Shown here in pieces: positions 18,152-30,702 of a stretch of 64,000 nucleotides of DNA. The notes beneath the pieces are model-generated. The model was not told the origin of the DNA and searched no databases. It was given only the letters and a program-made list of their open reading frames with translations. Numbering within the stretch: position 1 is the first letter of the stretch; every line of letters starts with the position of its first letter. The position numbers were made by a program, and so were the translations under genes. Location: contig DATCRI010000006.1 in NCBI GenBank assembly GCA_036569045.1, positions 1 to 64,000 of the forward strand, written 5' to 3'. The DNA is from Chthoniobacterales bacterium (GTDB lineage: Bacteria > Verrucomicrobiota > Verrucomicrobiia > Chthoniobacterales > JAATET01).

Positions 18152-19153
18152 TCAGTTGAGATGAGGCTTGGCGGATTCGACGAGTCCCAGACTCCGGAAG
18201 AGGTTGCGGGCGTTGGCGTGGCCGGCGTGGCCGCGCCAGGCGGGCAGGAAGCGGTCGATGGCGGCCTGATCGCCGCGCGCGCGGAGGATGCGTAGCGTGC
18301 GTTTGGCGCGCTTCACGCTGTCGCGCCGCAAGAGGCGGTGGGTGGGCCACATGCGGAAGCCGAGGAAATTCACGCCCCGGCTGATCGGCTGAATACTCCA
18401 TTTGGAGAAGCGCAGGCCCATGACGTCGGAAACGACGCGGTCGATGTGGCCCTTGAGGAAGTGCAGCTCGTCGAGGCTGCTCGCGAAGATGACGGTATCG
18501 TCCATGTAGCGCGTGGCCGTGGTGACGCCGGCTTCGTGGACGAGGAATCGGTCGAGAATGTGGCCGTAAAGATTGGCGAAAAGCTGGCTCGTGAGATTTC
18601 CGATGGGCAGGCCGCGCCCTTCGGTGGGGACGATCGCTTCGATGAGGCGAAGCGTGCGTGCACAGGTGATCTTGCGGCGAATCTCCCGGTGCAGGACGGC
18701 CCGGTCGATGGAGGCGAAGTATTTCGAGAAGTCCATCTTGAGGCAGAAGACGGGGCCGCGCTCGGCGAGGCGGCGCATGTGCATCTGGGCGCGATTCGCG
18801 CCGTAGTGCGTGCCCTTCCCTTTCCGGCAGGCGGCGGCCATCGGGAGCAGCATGGCGTCGAAGATGGGCTCGATGACGTTGCAGAGCGCGTGCTGGACGA
18901 CGCGGTCGTAAAACGGCAGAGCCATGATCTCGCGGGCCTTTGGCTCGAAAACCGTGAATGTGTGGTAGGGCGGCACGACGTAAGTCTCCGCCTCCAGCGC
19001 CCAGGCGATGCGCGAGAGATTTGCCTCGGCGTGCTCTTTGAACTGGAGATGGCCGGGCGTCATGCGCTTGTCGCGACGGGCACGGCGGTAAGCCTCGCGA
19101 AGATTGTCCGCGTCGATGATCTGCTCGAAGAGATTGCGGTGTTTCTTGCCCAT
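18152..19153 (-). CDS. DGR reverse transcriptase
   Basis: A 333-residue reverse transcriptase. Motifs: DFSKYFASID at 141 (catalytic Asp), IGNLTSQ at 184-190 (the IGxxxSQ signature that separates DGR RTs from retroviral and group-II-intron enzymes) and YMDD at 216-219. It has no maturase or endonuclease domain. It copies TR RNA into cDNA with errors at adenines, which then replaces the VRs. The chosen ATG overlaps the methyltransferase stop (TAATG), implying coupled translation. An upstream in-frame extension to 19285 lies inside the methyltransferase gene and was not used. Confidence 0.95.
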   Translation of the reverse strand: MGKKHRNLFEQIIDADNLREAYRRARRDKRMTPGHLQFKEHAEANLSRIAWALEAETYVVPPYHTFTVFEPKAREIMALPFYDRVVQHALCNVIEPIFDAMLLPMAAACRKGKGTHYGANRAQMHMRRLAERGPVFCLKMDFSKYFASIDRAVLHREIRRKITCARTLRLIEAIVPTEGRGLPIGNLTSQLFANLYGHILDRFLVHEAGVTTATRYMDDTVIFASSLDELHFLKGHIDRVVSDVMGLRFSKWSIQPISRGVNFLGFRMWPTHRLLRRDSVKRAKRTLRILRARGDQAAIDRFLPAWRGHAGHANARNLFRSLGLVESAKPHLN

Positions 19154-20058
19154 TACGCGGCCTTGAGTGCGTTGATAATGTCGGTCGCGACAGGCGGACA
19201 AACGGCGTTTCCGAGCATCATGAGCGCGTCCTTCTGTCGAGTTGGGAGTTTGTAGACGGCAGGGAACCCCATGGCTTTGCGGCATTCCTCTATGGAGAAC
19301 ATCCGCATCCGATCTCCATCAACAATGGCCCATCGATCACGGGTTGTGATTGTGCCGACAGGCCGCTGGAGCGAGCGGCCGCCACGCTCGTTCCCGTAGT
19401 AAGCAGTGAGGAACCGTGCACCATGAGTGGCGCGCCCGGCCTCGACTCGAGTGAGCGTTGCGCTTGAGCGACCCGGCTTGTCGACCGACGACCAGCGTCC
19501 GGAATTGAAATCGACGATATTTTCCGCGCCGACGTGCTGCCGAATTGGAAGCTTGAGTTGCAGCGGCGAAGCGCTGCGCGTGCCAATAATAAAGACTCGG
19601 CGGCGATGCTGCGGCACGCCGAAATCGGCAGCGTCCACAATGTGAGGTGAGAGCGAGTAGCCGAGCGCCTGCAAGGCGATGGACCATGCCGGGTAGAGAG
19701 CCCATTTTAAAAACTCGGGAACATTCTCAACGACGATGTGGTCCGGTTTGTGGAACTCGGCGCAGGATACAACAGCCCACGCGGTGGAGCGCTGTTTGTC
19801 GTGATGGGGCCGGTCCTTTCCCCGCGCGCGCGTGTGTCCTTGGCAGCATGGCGAGGCCAGAAGGACATCGTGCTTCGGAACGGCCGACCAGTCAGCTTGA
19901 TGAAGATCCTGACACGAATGTCGGGCATGCGGGTGATTGGCATGGTGATATTCCACGGCGGCCGGCCAGTGGTTGGCCGCCCAGACGACTTGAACTCCGG
20001 CAGCGCTTGCGCCAGCGGTGAAGCCGCCGAGGCCGGAAAATAGATCGATCGCGGTCAT
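19153..20058 (-). CDS. Cytosine-5 DNA methyltransferase, inserted between DGR template and RT
   Basis: A 301-residue C5 methyltransferase: SAM motif IDLFSGLGGFTAG at 4-16, catalytic motif SPCCQGH at 69-75 (variant of PCQ with two adjacent Cys), ENVPEF (motif VI) and QHRRRVFIIG (motif VIII). No endonuclease gene is nearby, so it is an orphan enzyme, likely an anti-restriction or regulatory modification of phage DNA. TTG at 20067 is an alternative start. Its stop overlaps the RT ATG. The target sequence cannot be read from the protein. Confidence 0.9.
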   Translation of the reverse strand: MTAIDLFSGLGGFTAGASAAGVQVVWAANHWPAAVEYHHANHPHARHSCQDLHQADWSAVPKHDVLLASPCCQGHTRARGKDRPHHDKQRSTAWAVVSCAEFHKPDHIVVENVPEFLKWALYPAWSIALQALGYSLSPHIVDAADFGVPQHRRRVFIIGTRSASPLQLKLPIRQHVGAENIVDFNSGRWSSVDKPGRSSATLTRVEAGRATHGARFLTAYYGNERGGRSLQRPVGTITTRDRWAIVDGDRMRMFSIEECRKAMGFPAVYKLPTRQKDALMMLGNAVCPPVATDIINALKAA

Positions 20059-20344
20059 TTCGGGCAAAGCGAGGCGCGAGATTCGACGACGGCTTTCGCC
20101 GCGCTACTCCTCGTTTTCCTCATGGGGTTGGGTGTTTGCCGAAGCGGGATGAACGGGCTGACCACCTGATTTTTCAGAAGTCGGCCCCGGTGGCCTGGAG
20201 TTGACCGGGCCGGGAGCGAGAGACCTGTTGACGTGGAAGTCACAGCGGCCGCGAGCGCCGATGTTGTCGTTGGAGTTGTTGGCGTTGTCGTTGTTGAGCC
20301 GGCGAGGGCCAGCGTCGGACGTCCTCCAATTGCCGCTACCCCGT
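20059..20344 (-). ncRNA. Putative DGR template RNA region (TR plus ~180-nt downstream spacer)
   Basis: The interval between the Avd stop and the methyltransferase start has no supported protein frame. It holds the TR (20239-20337) and a 180-base spacer downstream on the minus strand. In the Bordetella DGR the TR is copied from an RNA that also includes flanking avd and spacer sequence needed for RT priming. The equivalent RNA here should be transcribed leftward. The exact ends are unknown. Confidence 0.6.
20239..20337 (-). repeat. DGR template repeat (TR)
   Basis: A 99-base sequence that, read on the minus strand in the target frame, is rich in AAC codons (CTC AAC AAC GAC AAC GCC). It is 84-90% identical to the two variable repeats. 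Sixteen differences to VR1 and ten to VR2 all fall at TR adenines (counting the first codon, where the boundary is uncertain). The adenine-poor 3' end (GGCGCTCGCGGCCGCTGTGAC) is identical in all three. It lies outside any credible coding frame, as a template should. Confidence 0.95.
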
Positions 20345-20737
20345 TCATCCCTTTTTCGCGGCCTCCCTCGCCGTTTTGATCCACGCGCCGAGCATTTTGC
20401 CGACCTCCGCCAAGTGAACGGCGGCCGTCTTGTGCTGGTTCTGCGAAATCAATTCCCGTTTGGGAGCGGCGAGGAACCGCAAATAGAACCGCAGGAGGCC
20501 GAGGCCGGCGTCTGCGGTGTAAAGTCGTGAGAGTTGCCTGGATTTGCCGGCCTCGACGAAAAGCTCGACCTGACCGAAGGCCGCTCGCTGCACGGCGTCG
20601 CGCAAGATGGCATGCTTGCGCGGGATGCCGAGCAGGATCGGATAGACGTAGTCCAGGAACGTCTCGTAGCGCTCGACGATGGCGAGCTGCTGGTTGCAGA
20701 CGTATTCGTCCTGGATGAGTCGGGAGTCGGGTTTCAT
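20345..20737 (-). CDS. avd: DGR accessory variability determinant (Avd-like)
   Basis: A 130-residue, basic, all-helical protein (VERYETFLDYVYPILLGIPR ... RAAFGQVELFVEAGKS ... RFYLRFLAAPKREL). Size, composition and position directly upstream of the TR match Avd, the pentameric four-helix bundle that binds RT and template RNA and is essential for retrohoming. The gene starts 29 bases after the target-1 stop, just past the hairpin, and ends 7 bases before the TR. Confidence 0.85.
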   Translation of the reverse strand: MKPDSRLIQDEYVCNQQLAIVERYETFLDYVYPILLGIPRKHAILRDAVQRAAFGQVELFVEAGKSRQLSRLYTADAGLGLLRFYLRFLAAPKRELISQNQHKTAAVHLAEVGKMLGAWIKTAREAAKKG

Positions 20738-20744
20738 TTTTCGT

Positions 20745-20809
20745 CGCGCTTCGCTTTCGCTACGCGCTAGGCAAGGATCAGGTGGTCACAGCGGCCGCGA
20801 GCGCCGATG
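20745..20809 (-). repeat. 65-bp direct repeat downstream of VR1: hairpin, stop codon and homing-initiation region
   Basis: Identical over 65 bases to 21612-21676. On the minus strand it holds the adenine-poor 3' end of the VR, the last codons HLILA, the TAG stop, then an imperfect hairpin (GCGCGTAGC, loop GAAA, GCGAAGCGC). In the Bordetella DGR a GC-rich IMH and a GAAA-loop hairpin/cruciform just after the VR mark the acceptor. The TR lacks both the CACCTG continuation and the hairpin. Confidence 0.8.
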
Positions 20810-21582
20810 CCGCCGTAGGAGACGCTGGCGAAGACGTAGAAGAGCCGGCGAGGGCCAGCGTCGGACGTCCGCCAATAGCCGCCCAGGATGGCGATCCATC
20901 CCGAGGGGCGGATGTCGCGACTCCAGGTCCACATGCAGCCGGTCACCTGTTCGACGCCGACCGTGCTGCGCAGGCCCTTGATGTGACCGGTCTTTTTCGG
21001 GTCCTTGCCGGCAGACTGATTTTCGACGACGCCGATCGCGGCCAGCTCGAACTCGGCGGCGCTGAGGAGCTGCTTGCCATGAGCGGCGAGCAGATCCCGA
21101 GCGGTCCAGAAATTGAACCGTTCAGCGCGGATGCCAGGGCCGACGAGCGGCGGATTGTCGCCGTCCGCGATGACTGCTCCGGCTCGACTGGTGCCCTCGG
21201 TGAAGGCGTTCGCGCCGGTGAGGTAGATGTCGACCCAGAACGTGTCGCCGACGAGCACCATGCCGCGCGGGTCGGGTGCGGAGGGGCGGAACGCGGCGTC
21301 CCAGATGGAAGCCTCGACGATCTTGCCGTCGAGGCCCACATGGAACCCGCCAGCGGCGTGCTCCGTGACAAAGTCCTCGTCGTAAGGCGCGGCCTCCGCC
21401 CGGAGTTTCCCGGCCTTTTCGACGAGGAGGTAGTCGGTGCCTTTGGCGAGAACCTTCGGAACGATGATCTCGGCGGCTCCGGGAATATCTTCGATTTCGA
21501 CGCCGGGATTCACGGCGAGGTTGCCGCTATCGTTCACGTAGAACGCGCGGGCGTGAGTGTTTGGTTTCGTGAGTGTTTTCAT
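20767..21582 (-). CDS. DGR target protein 1 (C-type-lectin/FGE-fold variable protein)
   Basis: A 271-residue protein ending in the variable repeat (VR residues ~234-266), then HLILA. Upstream of it are SIWDAAFRPSAPDPRGMVLV, DIYLTG and GLRSTVGVEQVTGCMWTWSR, typical of DGR targets with a formylglycine-generating-enzyme-like C-lectin fold that displays variable side chains on a stable scaffold. Probably a phage tail-tip or fibre-head adhesin. In VR1 nearly all TR Asn codons have become F, Y, V, S or G, so this copy is strongly diversified. It is paralogous to the next gene upstream. Confidence 0.92.
   Translation of the reverse strand: MKTLTKPNTHARAFYVNDSGNLAVNPGVEIEDIPGAAEIIVPKVLAKGTDYLLVEKAGKLRAEAAPYDEDFVTEHAAGGFHVGLDGKIVEASIWDAAFRPSAPDPRGMVLVGDTFWVDIYLTGANAFTEGTSRAGAVIADGDNPPLVGPGIRAERFNFWTARDLLAAHGKQLLSAAEFELAAIGVVENQSAGKDPKKTGHIKGLRSTVGVEQVTGCMWTWSRDIRPSGWIAILGGYWRTSDAGPRRLFYVFASVSYGGIGARGRCDHLILA
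20785..20883 (-). repeat. DGR variable repeat 1 (VR1)
   Basis: The last 33 variable codons of target 1. Relative to the TR it has 16 substitutions, every one at a template adenine (for example AAC to TTC, TAC, AGC, GTC, GGC). No substitution lies at G, C or T of the template. The invariant last ~24 bases should form the IMH. Confidence 0.95.
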
Positions 21583-21611
21583 GGAATTGGATTTTTGGAA
21601 TTTGCGGCGGA

Positions 21612-21676
21612 CGCGCTTCGCTTTCGCTACGCGCTAGGCAAGGATCAGGTGGTCACAGCGGCCGCGAGCGCCGATG
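21612..21676 (-). repeat. 65-bp direct repeat downstream of VR2 (second copy)
   Basis: Second copy of the 65-bp VR 3' end / stop / hairpin block, identical to 20745-20809. Perfect identity of non-coding bases beyond the stop suggests recent duplication of the target gene end, or selection on the acceptor structure. Confidence 0.8.
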
Positions 21677-22377
21677 AAGTCGTTGGAGTAGTAGGCGAAG
21701 TCGAAGTCGAGCCGGCGAGGGCCAGCGTCGGACGTCCTCCAATTGCCGCCCGAAAGGAGTGCGTAGCGGTCGCTGTCGATGTCGCGCGTCCACGTCCACA
21801 TGGCGCCCGTGACCTGCTCAAGGCCTACGGTGCTTCGCAGGCCGTCGACGTGAGCAGTCAGCTCGGGGCGCTCGCCGCAGGTCTTGCCTTCGGTCGCGCC
21901 GGCCGCCGCGACCGAGAACTCGCCCGCGCTCAGGAGCTGCTTGCCCTGGGCGGCGAGCAAAGCGGTCGCGGCCCACCAGCTGATGTCTCGCGCGATCTTC
22001 GCGCCAGGGCGGCTCGTGCCGTCCTCGGCCGTGAGGTAGATGTCCACCCAGCCGACGCCGGGCACGAAGACCATGCCGCGCGGATCGGGCGCAGACGGGC
22101 GGAACTTCGTGTCCCAGATCGAGGCCGGCACGATCGCACCGTCAAGGCCGACGTGGAAGCCGCCGACCTCACCAGGGATGCGAGCCATGCTGGCCGCCAG
22201 ATCGCCGGAGTCGGTGGGGTGAATCGAGTAATCGACGCCTGGCGCGAGCGCGGGCAAGGCGACGAAGGGATTGATCGGCGGGATGTCGTCGAAGGTGACG
22301 CCGTCTTTAATGACGAGGCCGCCGCCTTTGACCTCGAAGGCGGGGGTGAATGGGTCTGCTTTTGATGTGATTTTCAC
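21634..22377 (-). CDS. DGR target protein 2 (C-type-lectin/FGE-fold variable protein)
   Basis: A 247-residue paralogue of target 1, read from a GTG start. The shared core is VGGFHVGLDGAIVPASIWDT, FRPSAPDPRGMVFV, DIYLTA and GLRSTVGLEQVTGAMWTWTR. The C-terminal VR (residues ~210-242) is followed by the same HLILA end. The N-terminal ~80 residues differ more, suggesting a different attachment point. VR2 keeps some template Asn codons, so it is less changed from the TR than VR1. It is first in the DGR transcript. Confidence 0.92.
   Translation of the reverse strand: MKITSKADPFTPAFEVKGGGLVIKDGVTFDDIPPINPFVALPALAPGVDYSIHPTDSGDLAASMARIPGEVGGFHVGLDGAIVPASIWDTKFRPSAPDPRGMVFVPGVGWVDIYLTAEDGTSRPGAKIARDISWWAATALLAAQGKQLLSAGEFSVAAAGATEGKTCGERPELTAHVDGLRSTVGLEQVTGAMWTWTRDIDSDRYALLSGGNWRTSDAGPRRLDFDFAYYSNDFIGARGRCDHLILA
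21652..21750 (-). repeat. DGR variable repeat 2 (VR2)
   Basis: 99 bases, ten substitutions from the TR, all at adenines (AAC to GAC, TTC or TAC; AGC to GGC). The flanking constant parts are identical to VR1 and TR. Tyr, Phe and Asp replace Asn, the residues DGR targets typically favour in binding sites. Confidence 0.95.
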
Positions 22378-26207: not shown

Positions 26208-26422
26208 GTCTCAAGCCCCCCCCCCCGCACGGTTTTGCGGGCGTCGTCGACAGAGGCGACGGCCTGCTGTTTCACGAACTTCTCGACGCGTTCCTCGATC
26301 TCTTCGAGGAACGCGGGCGAGACGCGATTGGCCTTGATGCCGAACTCTGCGCAGGCCGCCAGGGCGAGCCGACGAACCTCGGAGAAGCGGAGCAGGCGTC
26401 CGGATTTGGCTTCCGCGCTCAT
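26195..26422 (-). CDS. Small phage protein next to MuB (75 aa), unrecognised
   Basis: A 75-residue helical protein (RFSEVRRLALAACAEFGIKA, then AFLEEIEERVEKFVKQQAV). It starts 4 bases inside the end of MuB (ATGA) and overlaps the AP2-like gene. It resembles a short histone-like or coiled-coil protein. No function assigned. Confidence 0.5.
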   Translation of the reverse strand: MSAEAKSGRLLRFSEVRRLALAACAEFGIKANRVSPAFLEEIEERVEKFVKQQAVASVDDARKTVRGGGLETCLA

Positions 26423-27435
26423 CGGGACTCGACCTCCTGCGAGATGGCGGTAGACCAGCAATTCAGATCGGGTCCGGCGGTGCCGTCGGCGAGCTTCACG
26501 ACGCGGGAGACCACGTCGCGGACGAATGCGAGATTCCCGAAGGTCTGCACCTTGCTCTTGATGAGCTTGATGGCCTCGGCGACGCCATCGACGGCGGCGA
26601 CCTCTCGCGGCTGCATGCCGGCGAAGGCGGGCACGCGGCGAGCGATGAGTCGCAGGATGTCGTTTTCCCGGGCCGTGCCGAAGCGAAGGCGCTCGGCGAG
26701 GCGGTTGCCGGTGAGCTGGCGGGCCTCCTCGTAGGCCTCGCGCTGGAGGCGCTGCCAGAGGGTGCCGTAGGCGGCGGCGATGAACTCGCCGGGGGTGAGG
26801 TTGATGAGCGTCTTGAGCGTGTTGAGGCAACGCAGGCCCATGTGGTGGGCCTCGTCGATCGCCACGCACACGCGGGTCTGCCGCAGGCGCTGGATCACCT
26901 TTTCCATGCGATCGACGGCGAGCGTGGGCTGGTCCTTAATGCCAAGGGCGGTAAGGATCGCGCCGAGGAAGGCGTTCGGATTGTCGTTCCACACCTCCAT
27001 CGCCTCGATGAGGAGCACCCGCGCGCCGAACTTCGCCTGGAGCGCGGCGAGCGACTTCGTCTTGCCCGCGCCGGTGTCGCCCTCAATGAGGATGAATCGG
27101 GCGTTCCCGCTCTCGCGGGCGGTCTCGGCGAAGGCCCGCTTCAGCTCGAGCACGGTGGAGAAATCCTCGTAGGTTTCGTCGGCCGTGGTCTCGCTGCTGG
27201 CGAGGCTCTCGATCACCGCCCAGACGGCGCGGTAGTTGTCGAGCTGCCGGTCGAGATCGAGCTCGAGCAGGTCGTTGTTGCAGATACGTGTGTAGGTCTT
27301 CGTCGAGCCAAGCCCGGCGAATTTCTTCACCATCGCGTTGTCGGACAGCCGCTCGGCGGTCTGGTATTCGCGAATCTGGAGGCCGAGCTTGACCAGCTCG
27401 GCGGCGTCGCGGGTGTCGAGAAGCTCAGGCGCCAT
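26419..27435 (-). CDS. MuB-type AAA+ ATPase, target-DNA activator for transposition
   Basis: A 338-residue AAA ATPase with Walker A IEGDTGAGKTKS, Walker B CVAIDEAHHMG and sensor-like GEFIAAAYGT. The N-terminal ~75 residues (LSDNAMVKKFAGLGSTKTYT) match the HTH domain of MuB/ISTB-like target-binding ATPases. MuB coats target DNA, stimulates MuA strand transfer and confers target immunity. It lies downstream of MuA with one small gene between. Confidence 0.9.
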   Translation of the reverse strand: MAPELLDTRDAAELVKLGLQIREYQTAERLSDNAMVKKFAGLGSTKTYTRICNNDLLELDLDRQLDNYRAVWAVIESLASSETTADETYEDFSTVLELKRAFAETARESGNARFILIEGDTGAGKTKSLAALQAKFGARVLLIEAMEVWNDNPNAFLGAILTALGIKDQPTLAVDRMEKVIQRLRQTRVCVAIDEAHHMGLRCLNTLKTLINLTPGEFIAAAYGTLWQRLQREAYEEARQLTGNRLAERLRFGTARENDILRLIARRVPAFAGMQPREVAAVDGVAEAIKLIKSKVQTFGNLAFVRDVVSRVVKLADGTAGPDLNCWSTAISQEVESR

Positions 27436-27691
27436 GGCTGCGAGCGGAGTTGAGGGTGAAGGGAGCGCCGGTGATGAGCGCGCCCAGGCCGCGAGGCTCG
27501 ATGCTCTTCGCCGGGCGCGGCGTGGCGTGGAGCCCGGCGAGTTTTTGCAGCCGGCGGGCGTCCCGCTCGAGGCGAGAGATTTCAAATTGCTCGTGACGCA
27601 CGGCTCGCGCCAGGTCGCGGCGACGCTGGCGCGCCTGCCGGACGAGTCGCGCGGCGCGCCAGTTAAGGATGAGTCGGATGAGGGAGTTCAC
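27425..27691 (-). CDS. Small coiled-coil protein between MuA and MuB (88 aa)
   Basis: An 88-residue protein from a GTG preceded by AAGGAA four bases earlier, a good ribosome-binding site that decides the start. Residues 1-55 are a basic amphipathic helix (ILNWRAARLVRQARQRRRDL, then ARAVRHEQFEISRLERDARR) suited to coiled-coil or DNA contact. It overlaps the MuB start by 11 bases. Unknown function, possibly an accessory to the transposition complex. Confidence 0.6.
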   Translation of the reverse strand: MNSLIRLILNWRAARLVRQARQRRRDLARAVRHEQFEISRLERDARRLQKLAGLHATPRPAKSIEPRGLGALITGAPFTLNSARSHGA

Positions 27692-27728: not shown

Positions 27729-29708
27729 TCAGACGACGAGGAACTCGCCGTTCTCCTCGGCCTCGCGCTCCATGCGCTCGACCTCGCGGCGCAGGGCCTC
27801 GTCGGCGTCGAAATCCATGCCAGGGCGGGTGCTTCGTTTCGCTGGTTTGGTCGTCTCGGGCGCAGGCGCGATGTCGCCGCCGCGCACGGACGGGGCGCTG
27901 TCGATCTGCGCGGTGCGCCCGGCGCCGTCGCTAGCGCGGGAGGCCTTCGCGATCGTGCGGCCGCCGGTGCCGAGGGCTCGGTAGTCGCTGCGCACGGCAT
28001 CTTTGAAGCCTTTCTGCCGGTCGAGCGCGCCGAGCATGGCGGTCGCGCCGCGACCATTTTCCATGTCCACGCCGAGCGCGAACTGCGGGCAGCCGTCGAC
28101 GTGCGCGGCATGGCCGAGCACCTGGTTCGCCCGGCGGCCGTCGGCATGAACGAGCGTCGCGCCGGCCTGGGCGGCCTCGCGGTCGAAATAGACGGCGAAG
28201 CGCTCGCCCTCGTGCCGCCAGAGGTCGGGATGGTGAAACCACCAGGCGCCGCGGCTCTTGTCCGGCCGGGTGAAGCGCACCATCACGTGCCCCTTGCTGG
28301 CGGTGATCTGCGTGCGGTTGCGGGAGAAAAGGTGGGTCTGCTCGGGGGTGAGGCGGCGCAGGCGCTGCTCCGCGCCGGAGGCACGCCACATCTCTTCGGG
28401 CACGCCGTGGTAGAGCGTGCCCTCGACGGGCTCGCTGTTGATGTCGTGGAGCGAGGCCTCGAGGCGGGCGAGGATTTGCTCGTGGCTGAGGAAGTAGTCG
28501 CGCGGATCGCGGTGGCCGTTCCGGCACGCAGTCCAGATCTTGTTCGTGGCCTCAAACTCGCCGCGCTTGCGCCCGATCTGGCCCTCGATGTCGCTTTGGA
28601 GCGTCTGGAGAAAATTGAAACGGTTCTCGATGATCTTCGTTGTCGGCGACTGCGAGATAATCATCTTGAGGCCGAGGGCATGCAGGCCGCCGAGGCGCTG
28701 CTCGAAGGGCGTGTGCCCCTGCTCGATCGGCTCGCCCTGGAGCTGGTGCGATTGCCAGGTGCCGCGCTCCCAGCGCTCGCCGATCATTGGCAGGCCGATG
28801 TCGCGATACGACCGGCCGACCCATTGCCAGAGGTCATCCGCACGATAGCTGTCGCGCAGACGCACGAGCAGCTCGAAGGAAAGGAACCGCAGCGAGCCGA
28901 CGTCGATCTGCGGCAGGAACTGGCCGCGCGCCAGGCGCACGCCGAAGCGGTCGCTGCACGGGTCGCCGCCCCACGGCCAGTCGATCCAGAACAGAAAGTT
29001 GGCCGACATGTCGTCGCGCTCGAAGAGGTCGCCGGGCTCGATGCGGCGCTCGCGGCCGGTGGCGTCGAGGTAGGTAAGCGTGCGCGGGCACACGAAGCTC
29101 TCGCGCACGGTGCGCGTGGGGCTGCGGTGGAAATCCATCACCGCGCCAGGAACGCGGGCCTTGAGCTGGTCGCGCAGGGTCTTTGTGAGCGTGTGCTTGC
29201 TCGCGCGCTTTTTGAGGATGGCGTCGGCCACCTCCGGCCGGCAGCGCGGATCGCGGGCCAGCTTGCGCAGGGCGGTCGTGCCGCTTTTCGTCTTCACGTA
29301 GGCCTGCCCGGCGATTTGCAGCTCCTCGGGATTCAGCACTGCGAGCGGCTTGCGCCCACAGTTCGCATAGTTCTCCTCGAGGGCCTCGGGACCGAACTTC
29401 TCGACCTTCGTCCGCCAACGCAGCTCCGTCGCGGCATCCACGCCGACCTGCCGGCAGGCCGCCGCGCGGCTAATGCCGTAGTCGCGCATGGTGTGCTCGA
29501 CGGCGGCGAGGATGGAGAGCTTCGTCTCGGCCAGGGGAGAAAGGCCGACAGCCGGGTTGGCATTATCCCCCCCGAAACTCGCCTCCCCGGCTGCCGGTGA
29601 TTCTGAAAAAGCCGCGGAGGGAGCCGCGCATGGCGTCTCGCCATCGGATCGGCCCAAGCTCTCGGGTTGGGGACGGCCCCCTCCGCAAATTTCGACGGCG
29701 CCGATCAT
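27729..29708 (-). CDS. MuA-type DDE transposase
   Basis: A 659-residue transposase. The N-terminal ~100 residues contain an HTH-like region (YGISRAAACRQVGVDAATEL). The RNase-H-fold core includes a first acidic strand NFLFWIDWPWG, LRDSYRADDLWQWVGRSY, and the Glu helix in TTKIIENRFNFLQTLQ. The Mu-type C-terminal beta-barrel follows (GHVMVRFTRPDKSRGAWWF). It joins phage ends to target DNA and drives replication by transposition. It should recognise the AAGTTTGAAATG end sites. Its start overlaps the 64-residue gene upstream. Confidence 0.9.
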   Translation of the reverse strand: MIGAVEICGGGRPQPESLGRSDGETPCAAPSAAFSESPAAGEASFGGDNANPAVGLSPLAETKLSILAAVEHTMRDYGISRAAACRQVGVDAATELRWRTKVEKFGPEALEENYANCGRKPLAVLNPEELQIAGQAYVKTKSGTTALRKLARDPRCRPEVADAILKKRASKHTLTKTLRDQLKARVPGAVMDFHRSPTRTVRESFVCPRTLTYLDATGRERRIEPGDLFERDDMSANFLFWIDWPWGGDPCSDRFGVRLARGQFLPQIDVGSLRFLSFELLVRLRDSYRADDLWQWVGRSYRDIGLPMIGERWERGTWQSHQLQGEPIEQGHTPFEQRLGGLHALGLKMIISQSPTTKIIENRFNFLQTLQSDIEGQIGRKRGEFEATNKIWTACRNGHRDPRDYFLSHEQILARLEASLHDINSEPVEGTLYHGVPEEMWRASGAEQRLRRLTPEQTHLFSRNRTQITASKGHVMVRFTRPDKSRGAWWFHHPDLWRHEGERFAVYFDREAAQAGATLVHADGRRANQVLGHAAHVDGCPQFALGVDMENGRGATAMLGALDRQKGFKDAVRSDYRALGTGGRTIAKASRASDGAGRTAQIDSAPSVRGGDIAPAPETTKPAKRSTRPGMDFDADEALRREVERMEREAEENGEFLVV

Positions 29709-29899
29709 GGCCGGCCTCCGATCCGCAAGGTGTCGATGCGGTTTTTGATCCAGCGCACGAGACCCTTTCGCGCGGCCTTCTTGGCCGACTCGACCGCGAG
29801 GACGCACCGCAGGAAGGCGATGTCGGCCTCGTCGCGGAGCTGGCGCTTCGCGGTGGCGACATCCCAGCGCAGGATCTTGCGCGCGGCGGCCTCGCTCAT
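29705..29899 (-). CDS. Small phage protein upstream of MuA (64 aa)
   Basis: A 64-residue basic helical protein (RKILRWDVATAKRQLRDEAD ... KGLVRWIKNRIDTLRIG). Overlaps both ParB-like and MuA genes by 4 bases. No family recognised. Confidence 0.5.
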   Translation of the reverse strand: MSEAAARKILRWDVATAKRQLRDEADIAFLRCVLAVESAKKAARKGLVRWIKNRIDTLRIGGRP

Positions 29900-30702
29900 G
29901 CCCGGCCTCCCGCCTTGATGGCTTTTGCGATGGCCTGCTGCACCTCTTCCGGCCACGCGAGCACGGCGCTCGCCGCCTCTTCCTGCACGGCCAGACGGGC
30001 GCTGCCCTCGAGCTTTTCCCAGCGCTGGTCGAAGCGCTTGTTCAGCGCGGAAAATGTGTCGGTGATGAGTTGGTAGGGGCTGCGGTCCTGCCGATCGCTG
30101 CCCGTCGTGGCCTCGCTGCTCGCGAGCCCGGCGACGCAGGCGCCGAGGCCGATCTCGCCGGAGAGAATGCGCGGTTCGAATTTCTCGCGGAGGTCGGGAC
30201 GGCGGGTAAAAACTTCCCACACTTTGCCGGCCTGAAAGAACAGGTCGCGCGAAAACCCGAGACGGACAGCGATCTCCTCGACAGAAATCAGAGTCGACTG
30301 AATCGACGCTGATTTTCGATCACCGCCATTTTTGGGACGGGACGAGGCCGCCAGCGGGTAGGCCAGATAGGCAAGCGCGCCTTTCCCGTAGTGGCGACGA
30401 TGGACGAGTGTGGCAAGGATGATGCCCGGCGCGTCGACCTCCTCGACTTCCTCGACGGTCACCTCGGTGAGGCCGGCGGCACGCGCCGCACGGAAGCGGT
30501 TGCGCCCATCGACGAGGTAAACATAGCCGGGCGCGCCGCCACCGTTTTCGAGAGCGGTGACGATGAGCGGCTGGTCGATGCCGCGGTCGGCAATGTCGTC
30601 AGCCAGCGCTGCGAACTCGCGAGAGTCCTCCGGCATGAGGCCGGGCAGGCCCTGCACGAGCCGGTGAAACAAAATGTGGTCGATGGGGATGGTGCGAGTC
30701 AT
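29896..30702 (-). CDS. ParB/Srx-fold DNA-binding protein
   Basis: A 268-residue protein. The N-terminal ParB-like nuclease domain has ALADDIADRGIDQPLIV and the signature VYLVDGRNRFRAARAAGLTE. The middle has an HTH-like part (ISVEEIAVRLGFSRDLFF), and the C-terminal third is helical. Many Mu-like phages carry such a protein near the transposase genes, where it probably regulates early expression or DNA organisation. A partition role is unlikely for an integrated phage. Confidence 0.85.
   Translation of the reverse strand: MTRTIPIDHILFHRLVQGLPGLMPEDSREFAALADDIADRGIDQPLIVTALENGGGAPGYVYLVDGRNRFRAARAAGLTEVTVEEVEEVDAPGIILATLVHRRHYGKGALAYLAYPLAASSRPKNGGDRKSASIQSTLISVEEIAVRLGFSRDLFFQAGKVWEVFTRRPDLREKFEPRILSGEIGLGACVAGLASSEATTGSDRQDRSPYQLITDTFSALNKRFDQRWEKLEGSARLAVQEEAASAVLAWPEEVQQAIAKAIKAGGRA

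Follow-up and report, generated by a model that had tools for sequence, protein, structure and literature searches.

The two target genes of the DGR in the window (the whole analysed stretch of 64,000 nt) end in a perfect 65-nt repeat, which in all likelihood serves a BPP-1-type DGR with two targets as its target-site signal, made up of the IMH and the post-VR hairpin; this is the joint best explanation of the features described below. The coding strand is slightly favoured as the strand that folds. The more specific proposal of a coding-strand fold instead of a cruciform, built on sheared purine pairs (cGNNAg loop with GA/GA or GNA/GNA below), is offered tentatively, its chances being rated a little below even.

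Gene content and phage context

On the minus strand, the DGR is arranged in the order target 2, target 1, avd, TR, spacer, a cytosine-5 methyltransferase gene and the reverse transcriptase (RT) gene. The protein-coding features referred to in the following are:

18152..19285, minus strand: DGR reverse transcriptase (RVT_1, E 4.4e-12; phrog_1423, E 2.5e-116)
20345..20737, minus strand: avd (bAvd, PF22296, E 5.1e-29), adjoining TR
20767..21582, minus strand: target 1, Mtd homologue
21634..22377, minus strand: target 2, of the same tail-protein family (phrog_11262) as target 1
26419-27585: DNA transposition protein, Mu-like region
27729-29807: transposase, Mu-like region
29896-30702: ParB-like protein, Mu-like region

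Judged by its predicted products (RT, bAvd and an Mtd-like target) and the adenine-only differences between TR and VRs, the locus is a BPP-1-type DGR. The RT shares 49.8% identity with BPP-1 brt, which ranks first among 150 matching phage records. Residues G229...S233 Q234 and Y260-D263 are invariant in A1 and represent the GxxxSQ and YMDD motifs of DGR reverse transcriptases. Since conservation of the RT starts only at Met45, its true start may be located at 19153. Target 1 matches solved Mtd structures (E 8.1e-31), and the VR sits at the 3' end of what this homology predicts to be a C-type-lectin target gene. The methyltransferase gene (19153-20067) is situated within the DGR between spacer and RT, unlike in BPP-1, and at E 1e-5 it has a match only in L003 among 87 other loci.

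Mu-like genes surround the DGR, encoding a transposase, a DNA transposition protein, a minor head protein, a head maturation protease, a major head protein and a tape measure protein. Such Mu-like gene content, including head and tail genes, spans positions 4584-30702 of the window. The host element of the DGR is best explained as a Mu-like phage or prophage with two targets.

The 65-nt repeat and probable recent activity of both VRs

20239..20337, minus strand: TR, no hairpin downstream
20785..20883, minus strand: VR1, 16 differences to TR over 99 nt, all at TR adenines
21652..21750, minus strand: VR2, 10 differences to TR over 99 nt, all at TR adenines
20745..20809, minus strand: 65-nt repeat copy 1 (VR1 3' end, VR-only part of the IMH, stop codon, hairpin)
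21612..21676, minus strand: 65-nt repeat copy 2, identical to copy 1
20746..20767, minus strand: hairpin behind VR1 (loop 20755-20758; opens with the G of the stop codon TAG)
21613..21634, minus strand: hairpin behind VR2 (loop 21622-21625), identical to the VR1 hairpin

The ends of VR1 and VR2 are identical over exactly 65 nt, with 25 nt also present in TR (CATCGGCGCTCGCGGCCGCTGTGAC) and the remaining 40 nt without TR counterpart (CACCTGATCCTTGCCTAGCGCGTAGCGAAAGCGAAGCGCG). Both copies terminate 1 base beyond the hairpin, at 20745 and 21612 (minus strand). The hairpin (GCGC-GTA-GC [GAAA] GC-GAA-GCGC) consists of a 4-nt GAAA loop and a stem whose 2 + 4 Watson-Crick pairs flank an A·G, T-A, G·A element; the stem starts 16 nt past TGTGAC. 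The initial annotation had described a perfect 65-base repeat with a GAAA hairpin after both stop codons, as well as a TR that lacks the hairpin and diverges directly after TGTGAC, all of which was confirmed. Its figure of 25 shared non-coding bases needs adjustment: the identity does extend past the stop codon, but by 22 nt beyond TAG, and amounts to 25 only if TAG itself is counted.

A 25-mer spanning the hairpin occurs at just these two post-VR sites in the 3.43-Mb genome at ≤3 mismatches, which rules out a dispersed genomic repeat. An intrinsic terminator (a GC stem with a T run behind it) was likewise rejected, the window hairpin not being among the terminator-like sites; just 7 of 95 distinct hairpins have TTTT at a distance of no more than 14 nt from the sixth arm base.

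The closest relative is an IMG/VR contig (L003) with the same two-target layout and an RT of 94% identity (full ORF). Its TR is identical to that of the window over 99 nt, whereas the VRs differ, VR1 at 16 positions and VR2 at 13; all of these differences fall on the 24 adenines of the TR, and the remaining 75 positions are unchanged. Adenine-only divergence of the VRs with identical TRs implies that both VRs were rewritten recently. Repeated rounds of mutagenic homing into both genes would leave just such a divergence, which is the strongest evidence, independent of the hairpin, that both VRs are acceptors; the earlier suggestion that both are active is thereby supported. In L003, the target-1 hairpin is followed by 6 nt (TCCGCG) that are missing from the window (20739-20745), and the exact end of the 65-nt identity at the hairpin is partly due to this absence.

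Conservation of the hairpin among related loci

Loci, including 12 named phage regions, were searched by a script for TR/VR pairs differing at adenines, yielding 106 distinct post-VR tails from 88 loci. Tails under 55 nt and loci without a TR/VR pair (13 among those up to L164) were excluded, and tails sharing their first 45 nt were counted once. Manual steps were the anchoring of L007 and of the second L126 tail, the setting of L102 to 'no hairpin' and the addition of the window's second tail. The strict definition of the hairpin comprised a cGNNAg loop, a Watson-Crick second pair and one of three stem types: four more canonical pairs, or else two canonical pairs together with either GA/GA or GNA/GNA.

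A strict hairpin is present in 84/106 VR tails (60 canonical, 19 GA/GA, 5 GNA/GNA), compared to 0/106 TR tails, 0/106 antisense reads of the tails and 39 of 20,670 random windows of 60 nt drawn from these loci (37 canonical, 2 GNA/GNA, 0 GA/GA); related sequences being non-independent, these counts refer to sequences, not events. The comparison across relatives that had been proposed as a check, with lack of conservation in close relatives with functional VRs as the unfavourable outcome, thus revealed a conserved hairpin with compensating pairs.

By a looser rule, a GNNA hairpin is present in 102/107 tails and absent from five (L021, L102, L168, L175 and L176); by eye, the sequence of L021 permits a GNA/GNA stem topped by an AAAA loop. 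Since loop-anchored counts presuppose GNNA, its frequency in them does not count as a result. When the search was run without constraint, 83/106 tails had a 4-nt loop in their best hairpin, and this loop was GNNA in 77 of the 83. A general hairpin score disregarding the loop was uninformative (mean of 18.8 for TR tails and 20.1 for VR tails; 15.1 for shuffled sequences), the high TR-tail score probably reflecting that the TR spacer is itself a structured RNA.

A second set was generated by scanning viral contigs for the IMH pattern TGTGACCACNTGNNNCTTGNNT. Among the matches listed, 117 were usable; 17 distinct tails were already contained in the first set and 84 were new (canonical 38, GA/GA 20, other 13, none 13). 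Each of the 55 tails with a same-strand RT among the matches listed possesses a hairpin (33 canonical, 14 GA/GA, 8 other). The 13 hairpin-less tails among these matches all come from loci without RT, and several may therefore represent chance matches.

Both targets carry the hairpin in all 19 loci with two scored targets. Stem and loop are identical within 4 of the 19 pairs (including the window) and different in 15. Comparison of 152 stem pairs within these loci showed 121 to be the same, 10 to be changed on both sides yet pairing, 5 to be changed on one side yet pairing, and 16 to pair in at most one copy. Thus, the hairpin follows each VR, whatever its sequence.

Stem architecture and G·A pairs

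The closing pair is C-G in 93 of 95 distinct hairpins. Their loops are GAAA (42), GGAA (23), GACA (10), GCAA (7), GGTA (6), GATA (3), GGCA (2), GAGA (1) and GTAA (1), such that the published GRNA rule fits 87/95, with GCAA and GTAA falling outside.

The stem is imperfect in a conserved manner, with GTA/GAA in the window and tandem GA/GA in other lineages. The G·A element begins two pairs below the cGNNAg loop, and its flanking pairs change in compensating fashion. Internal stem mismatches on the coding strand (63 cells) are A·G in 57 cases, G·G in 4, A·A in 1 and C·T in 1, whereas the expectation from arm composition alone would be 21% for A·G and 9% for C·T. A group of 18 distinct hairpins has A·G at position 3 and G·A at position 4; at positions 5 and 6, all 18 form canonical pairs, of five types at each position, as opposed to a maximum of 16/18 in 5000 shuffles of these positions, though the figure of 18/18 leans somewhat towards pairing, since the choice of candidates favours pairs. 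The loop-side pair also varies under tandem GA, with A-T at position 2 in L253 and L281 of the second set. In the GNA class, to which the window belongs, A·G at position 3 and G·A at position 5 enclose a free middle position (T-A, T·G, A·A, A·G).

In L121 (after 206), the tandem G·A occupies positions 5-6 rather than 3-4 (GCGAGCAC-GAAA-GTGCGAGC), indicating that the G·A element can shift along the stem. L062 (~2326-2353) contains two overlapping tandem GA/GA hairpins behind one VR (CGAGC GCAA GCGAGC GCAA GCGAG).

On an RT tree (quick method, SH-aLRT support only; L026 represented by a short RT fragment), the GA label requires 9 changes, with 8 imposed by starred branches, while 2 suffice for the GNA label; clustering of both labels exceeds that of all 500 shuffles. 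Among near-identical RTs, L019 and L025 go with perfect stems (TCGGGC-GAAA-GCCCGG in L025) and L020 with TCGAGC-GAAA-GCGAGA, from which it follows that, between close kin, two G-C pairs can stand in for two tandem G·A pairs and vice versa.

Median nearest-neighbour DNA energies are -1.1 kcal/mol for GA, -3.3 kcal/mol for GNA and -10.5 kcal/mol for perfect stems, the window hairpin reaching -5.6 kcal/mol. The weak values computed for G·A stems count against the hairpin reading; standard energies give G·A elements no credit. In DNA, d(GCGAAAGC), d(cGNNAg) loops and sheared G·A pairs are stable, and the G·A stems would accordingly be stable as well.

TR end, spacer box and inverted repeat

20159..20170, minus strand: TR spacer ATCAGGTGGTCA, its last part being the conserved box GTGGTCA, the pairing partner of the TR end
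20340..20351, minus strand: 5' arm of a perfect inverted repeat of 12 bp, spanning the stop codon of avd
20146..20157, minus strand: 3' arm of the same repeat, just past the GTGGTCAGC box
20082..20210, minus strand: match to Rfam RF03022 Phage_DGR (44.7 bits, E 1.2e-6; gathering score 50)

The conserved box GTGGTCAGC downstream of TR also stands in capitals in the RF03022 consensus. It was analysed in 63 distinct TR/box pairs, 16 loci being skipped for want of box or anchor. Position 4 of the box pairs with the TR end in 60/63 (shuffled mean 30.9, maximum 43). For position 5, the corresponding figure is 46/63 (shuffled mean 22.2, maximum 35). With the VR, position 4 pairs in 39/63 (shuffled mean 34.0). 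Since the variable box positions follow the TR end and not the VR, pairing with TR is favoured and a function of the box as a guide pairing with TGACCAC of the VR is disfavoured. The divergence of TR past TGTGAC is non-random: at the first position after TGAC, TR has G in 47/63 and C in 5/63 opposite a G of the box, and VR has C in 63/63. The difference between IMH and IMH* hence includes one conserved TR mismatch.

The last base of the box (20159) is A opposite T in 47/63 and G opposite C in 15/63 TR/box pairs. The last A of the box we take to be the priming adenine (A56), and in view of the 15 pairs with G some elements may prime from G. Handa and colleagues reportedly described cDNA priming (adenine 56) and RNA structure. 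Priming of the cDNA within IMH* by an internal spacer adenine is reported in PMC12875486.

The inverted repeat encloses TR and links the end of avd to the spacer. In relatives, a helix is present at the same offset with very different sequences, and a locus's own pairing exceeds the cross-locus mean in 62/77. The RF03022 gathering score is exceeded by 12 of the 13 loci given, including BPP-1; the nearest relative L003 is below it.

Comparison with known systems

The target site of BPP-1 mtd (NC_005357.1) shares with the window TGTGACCACCTGATTCTTGAG followed by TAG and a GAAA hairpin (CGGGGCC-GAAA-GGCCCCG in BPP-1), further TGTGACCACCTGATNCTTG, the stop codon at the stem base and the GAAA loop on C-G. 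The gene order target-avd-TR-RT and the Mtd-like target are also the same. In contrast, BPP-1 has a single target and a perfect stem of 8 bp, while the two targets of the window go with a stem interrupted by A·G, T-A and G·A; VR and TR diverge fully after TGTGAC in the window, but only by a few mismatches in BPP-1. According to excerpts of PMC3240598, disruption of the BPP-1 stem lowered tropism switching more than 1000-fold, re-pairing with another sequence rescued it, and both sequence and size of the loop mattered; the requirement of a hairpin downstream of the VR, to which the initial annotation had referred, is thus experimentally established for BPP-1.

Post-VR hairpins of other phage DGRs, as described in the same excerpts, agree with the window in their 4-nt GRNA loop, located 4-34 bp past the VR. 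They differ in their uninterrupted GC-rich stems of 7-10 bp, and G·A elements are not mentioned in these passages of PMC3240598. The window hairpin, as predicted, is therefore a variant of the published post-VR hairpin that has the GRNA loop and departs from the uninterrupted stem. Mention of G·A-interrupted DGR hairpins was not found in a search-level survey of the open-licence literature. The archaeal DGRs (ANMV-1 and nanoarchaeal) covered by the relevant sections of PMC4372165 likewise possess a post-VR hairpin, with GRA trinucleotide loops and a G...A closing theme; different from the window, their loops have 3 nt and the hairpin resides within the target gene. Group IIC introns, as far as portrayed in sections of PMC3240598, resemble the DGR as retroelements with a DNA stem-loop as target signal, but the loop sequence is unimportant, the stem-loops are real terminators, and the outcome is insertion, not sequence replacement.

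Proposed mechanism and alternative explanations

Mutagenised cDNA derived from the single TR would home into one VR or the other, being positioned by homology across the GC-rich VR 3' end. The hairpin just downstream would raise efficiency, most likely acting as a DNA fold of the coding strand while this is single-stranded. In this fold, a d(cGNNAg) loop would rest on two G-C pairs, followed by the G·A element (here GTA/GAA) and a GC stem. The homing complex would read such a one-strand shape when the coding strand, to which the cDNA would anneal, is exposed. By analogy, the hairpin may work here as in BPP-1, with the G·A pairs probably being sheared. GNNA loops and purine-purine mismatches sit on the coding strand, and the opposite strand has TNNC loops and C·T mismatches. 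This polarity favours a coding-strand hairpin over a symmetric cruciform, and the one-strand G·A pairs hint at the strand used by the mutation machinery. Against the target-site reading stands the uninterrupted window stem of just 2 + 4 Watson-Crick pairs, as removal of 2 bp from the BPP-1 stem already lowered activity (excerpts of PMC3240598).

A symmetric double-stranded cruciform, for which the strand would be irrelevant and G·A mismatches would be tolerated decay, is unlikely. BPP-1 DNA does form a hairpin/cruciform in supercoiled plasmids, and the BPP-1 target functions in either orientation relative to the phage genome (both from excerpts of PMC3240598); however, symmetry predicts equal numbers of C·T and A·G on the coding strand (observed 1 versus 57), the antisense strand is devoid of strict hairpins in all 106 tails, and decay would not hold G·A at the same two places across several lineages. 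Still less probable is a hairpin in the mRNA for translation coupling or stability between a target and the next gene (avd or target 1), its stem housing a purine-rich initiation region via G·A. The strand polarity would be the same, computed RNA energies exceed DNA energies in strength, and the next start codon, as called mechanically, is within 7 nt for 17/23 G·A stems versus 9/58 others (9/12 versus 18/41 in the second set, among the matches listed). Yet this link to the start codon is without significance in phylogenetically independent pairs, terminator T runs are missing, and the hairpins follow VRs, not TRs. Shine-Dalgarno matches are not enriched, leaving a Shine-Dalgarno sequence inside the stem unsupported. 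Moreover, 21/95 loops are GNYA and thus outside GNRA, the stable RNA tetraloop set, and for BPP-1 a role of the DNA was demonstrated (excerpts of PMC3240598).

A reading in which the shared hairpin merely remains, without function, from a recent tandem duplication of the target gene is highly improbable. The identical hairpins in the window and the paralogy of the two target genes would agree with it, but the genes are only ~71-75% alike where alignable, the two hairpins of L003 differ yet preserve the fold, 15/19 two-target loci carry two different hairpins, and the hairpin is conserved across 88 loci. Just as improbable is that the arms are protein-binding direct repeats of GCGAGC or AGCGAA with the hairpin being incidental: both arms read GCGAGC in several GA-class loci, but L163 (GCAAGAGC-GTAA-GCGATTGC), L117 (GGCGGAGC-GGAA-GCGACGCC) and L285 (AAGTGAGC-GAAA-GCGAACTT) pair only as inverted repeats.

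Implications for DGR target sites

How DGR cDNA enters the target is unsolved, and the passages of PMC3240598 and PMC12875486 concerned leave open the role of the hairpin and the strand on which it acts. Because G·A stems should be stable on one strand only, they could separate a one-strand hairpin from a cruciform with the loop unaltered. If the one-strand reading is true, the natural G·A variants would represent evolution's own test, with the antisense strand carrying only C·T mismatches. G·A stems also widen the definition of a functional target, as 23/95 distinct hairpins, and 14/55 in the second set among the matches listed, would escape searches for perfect inverted repeats.
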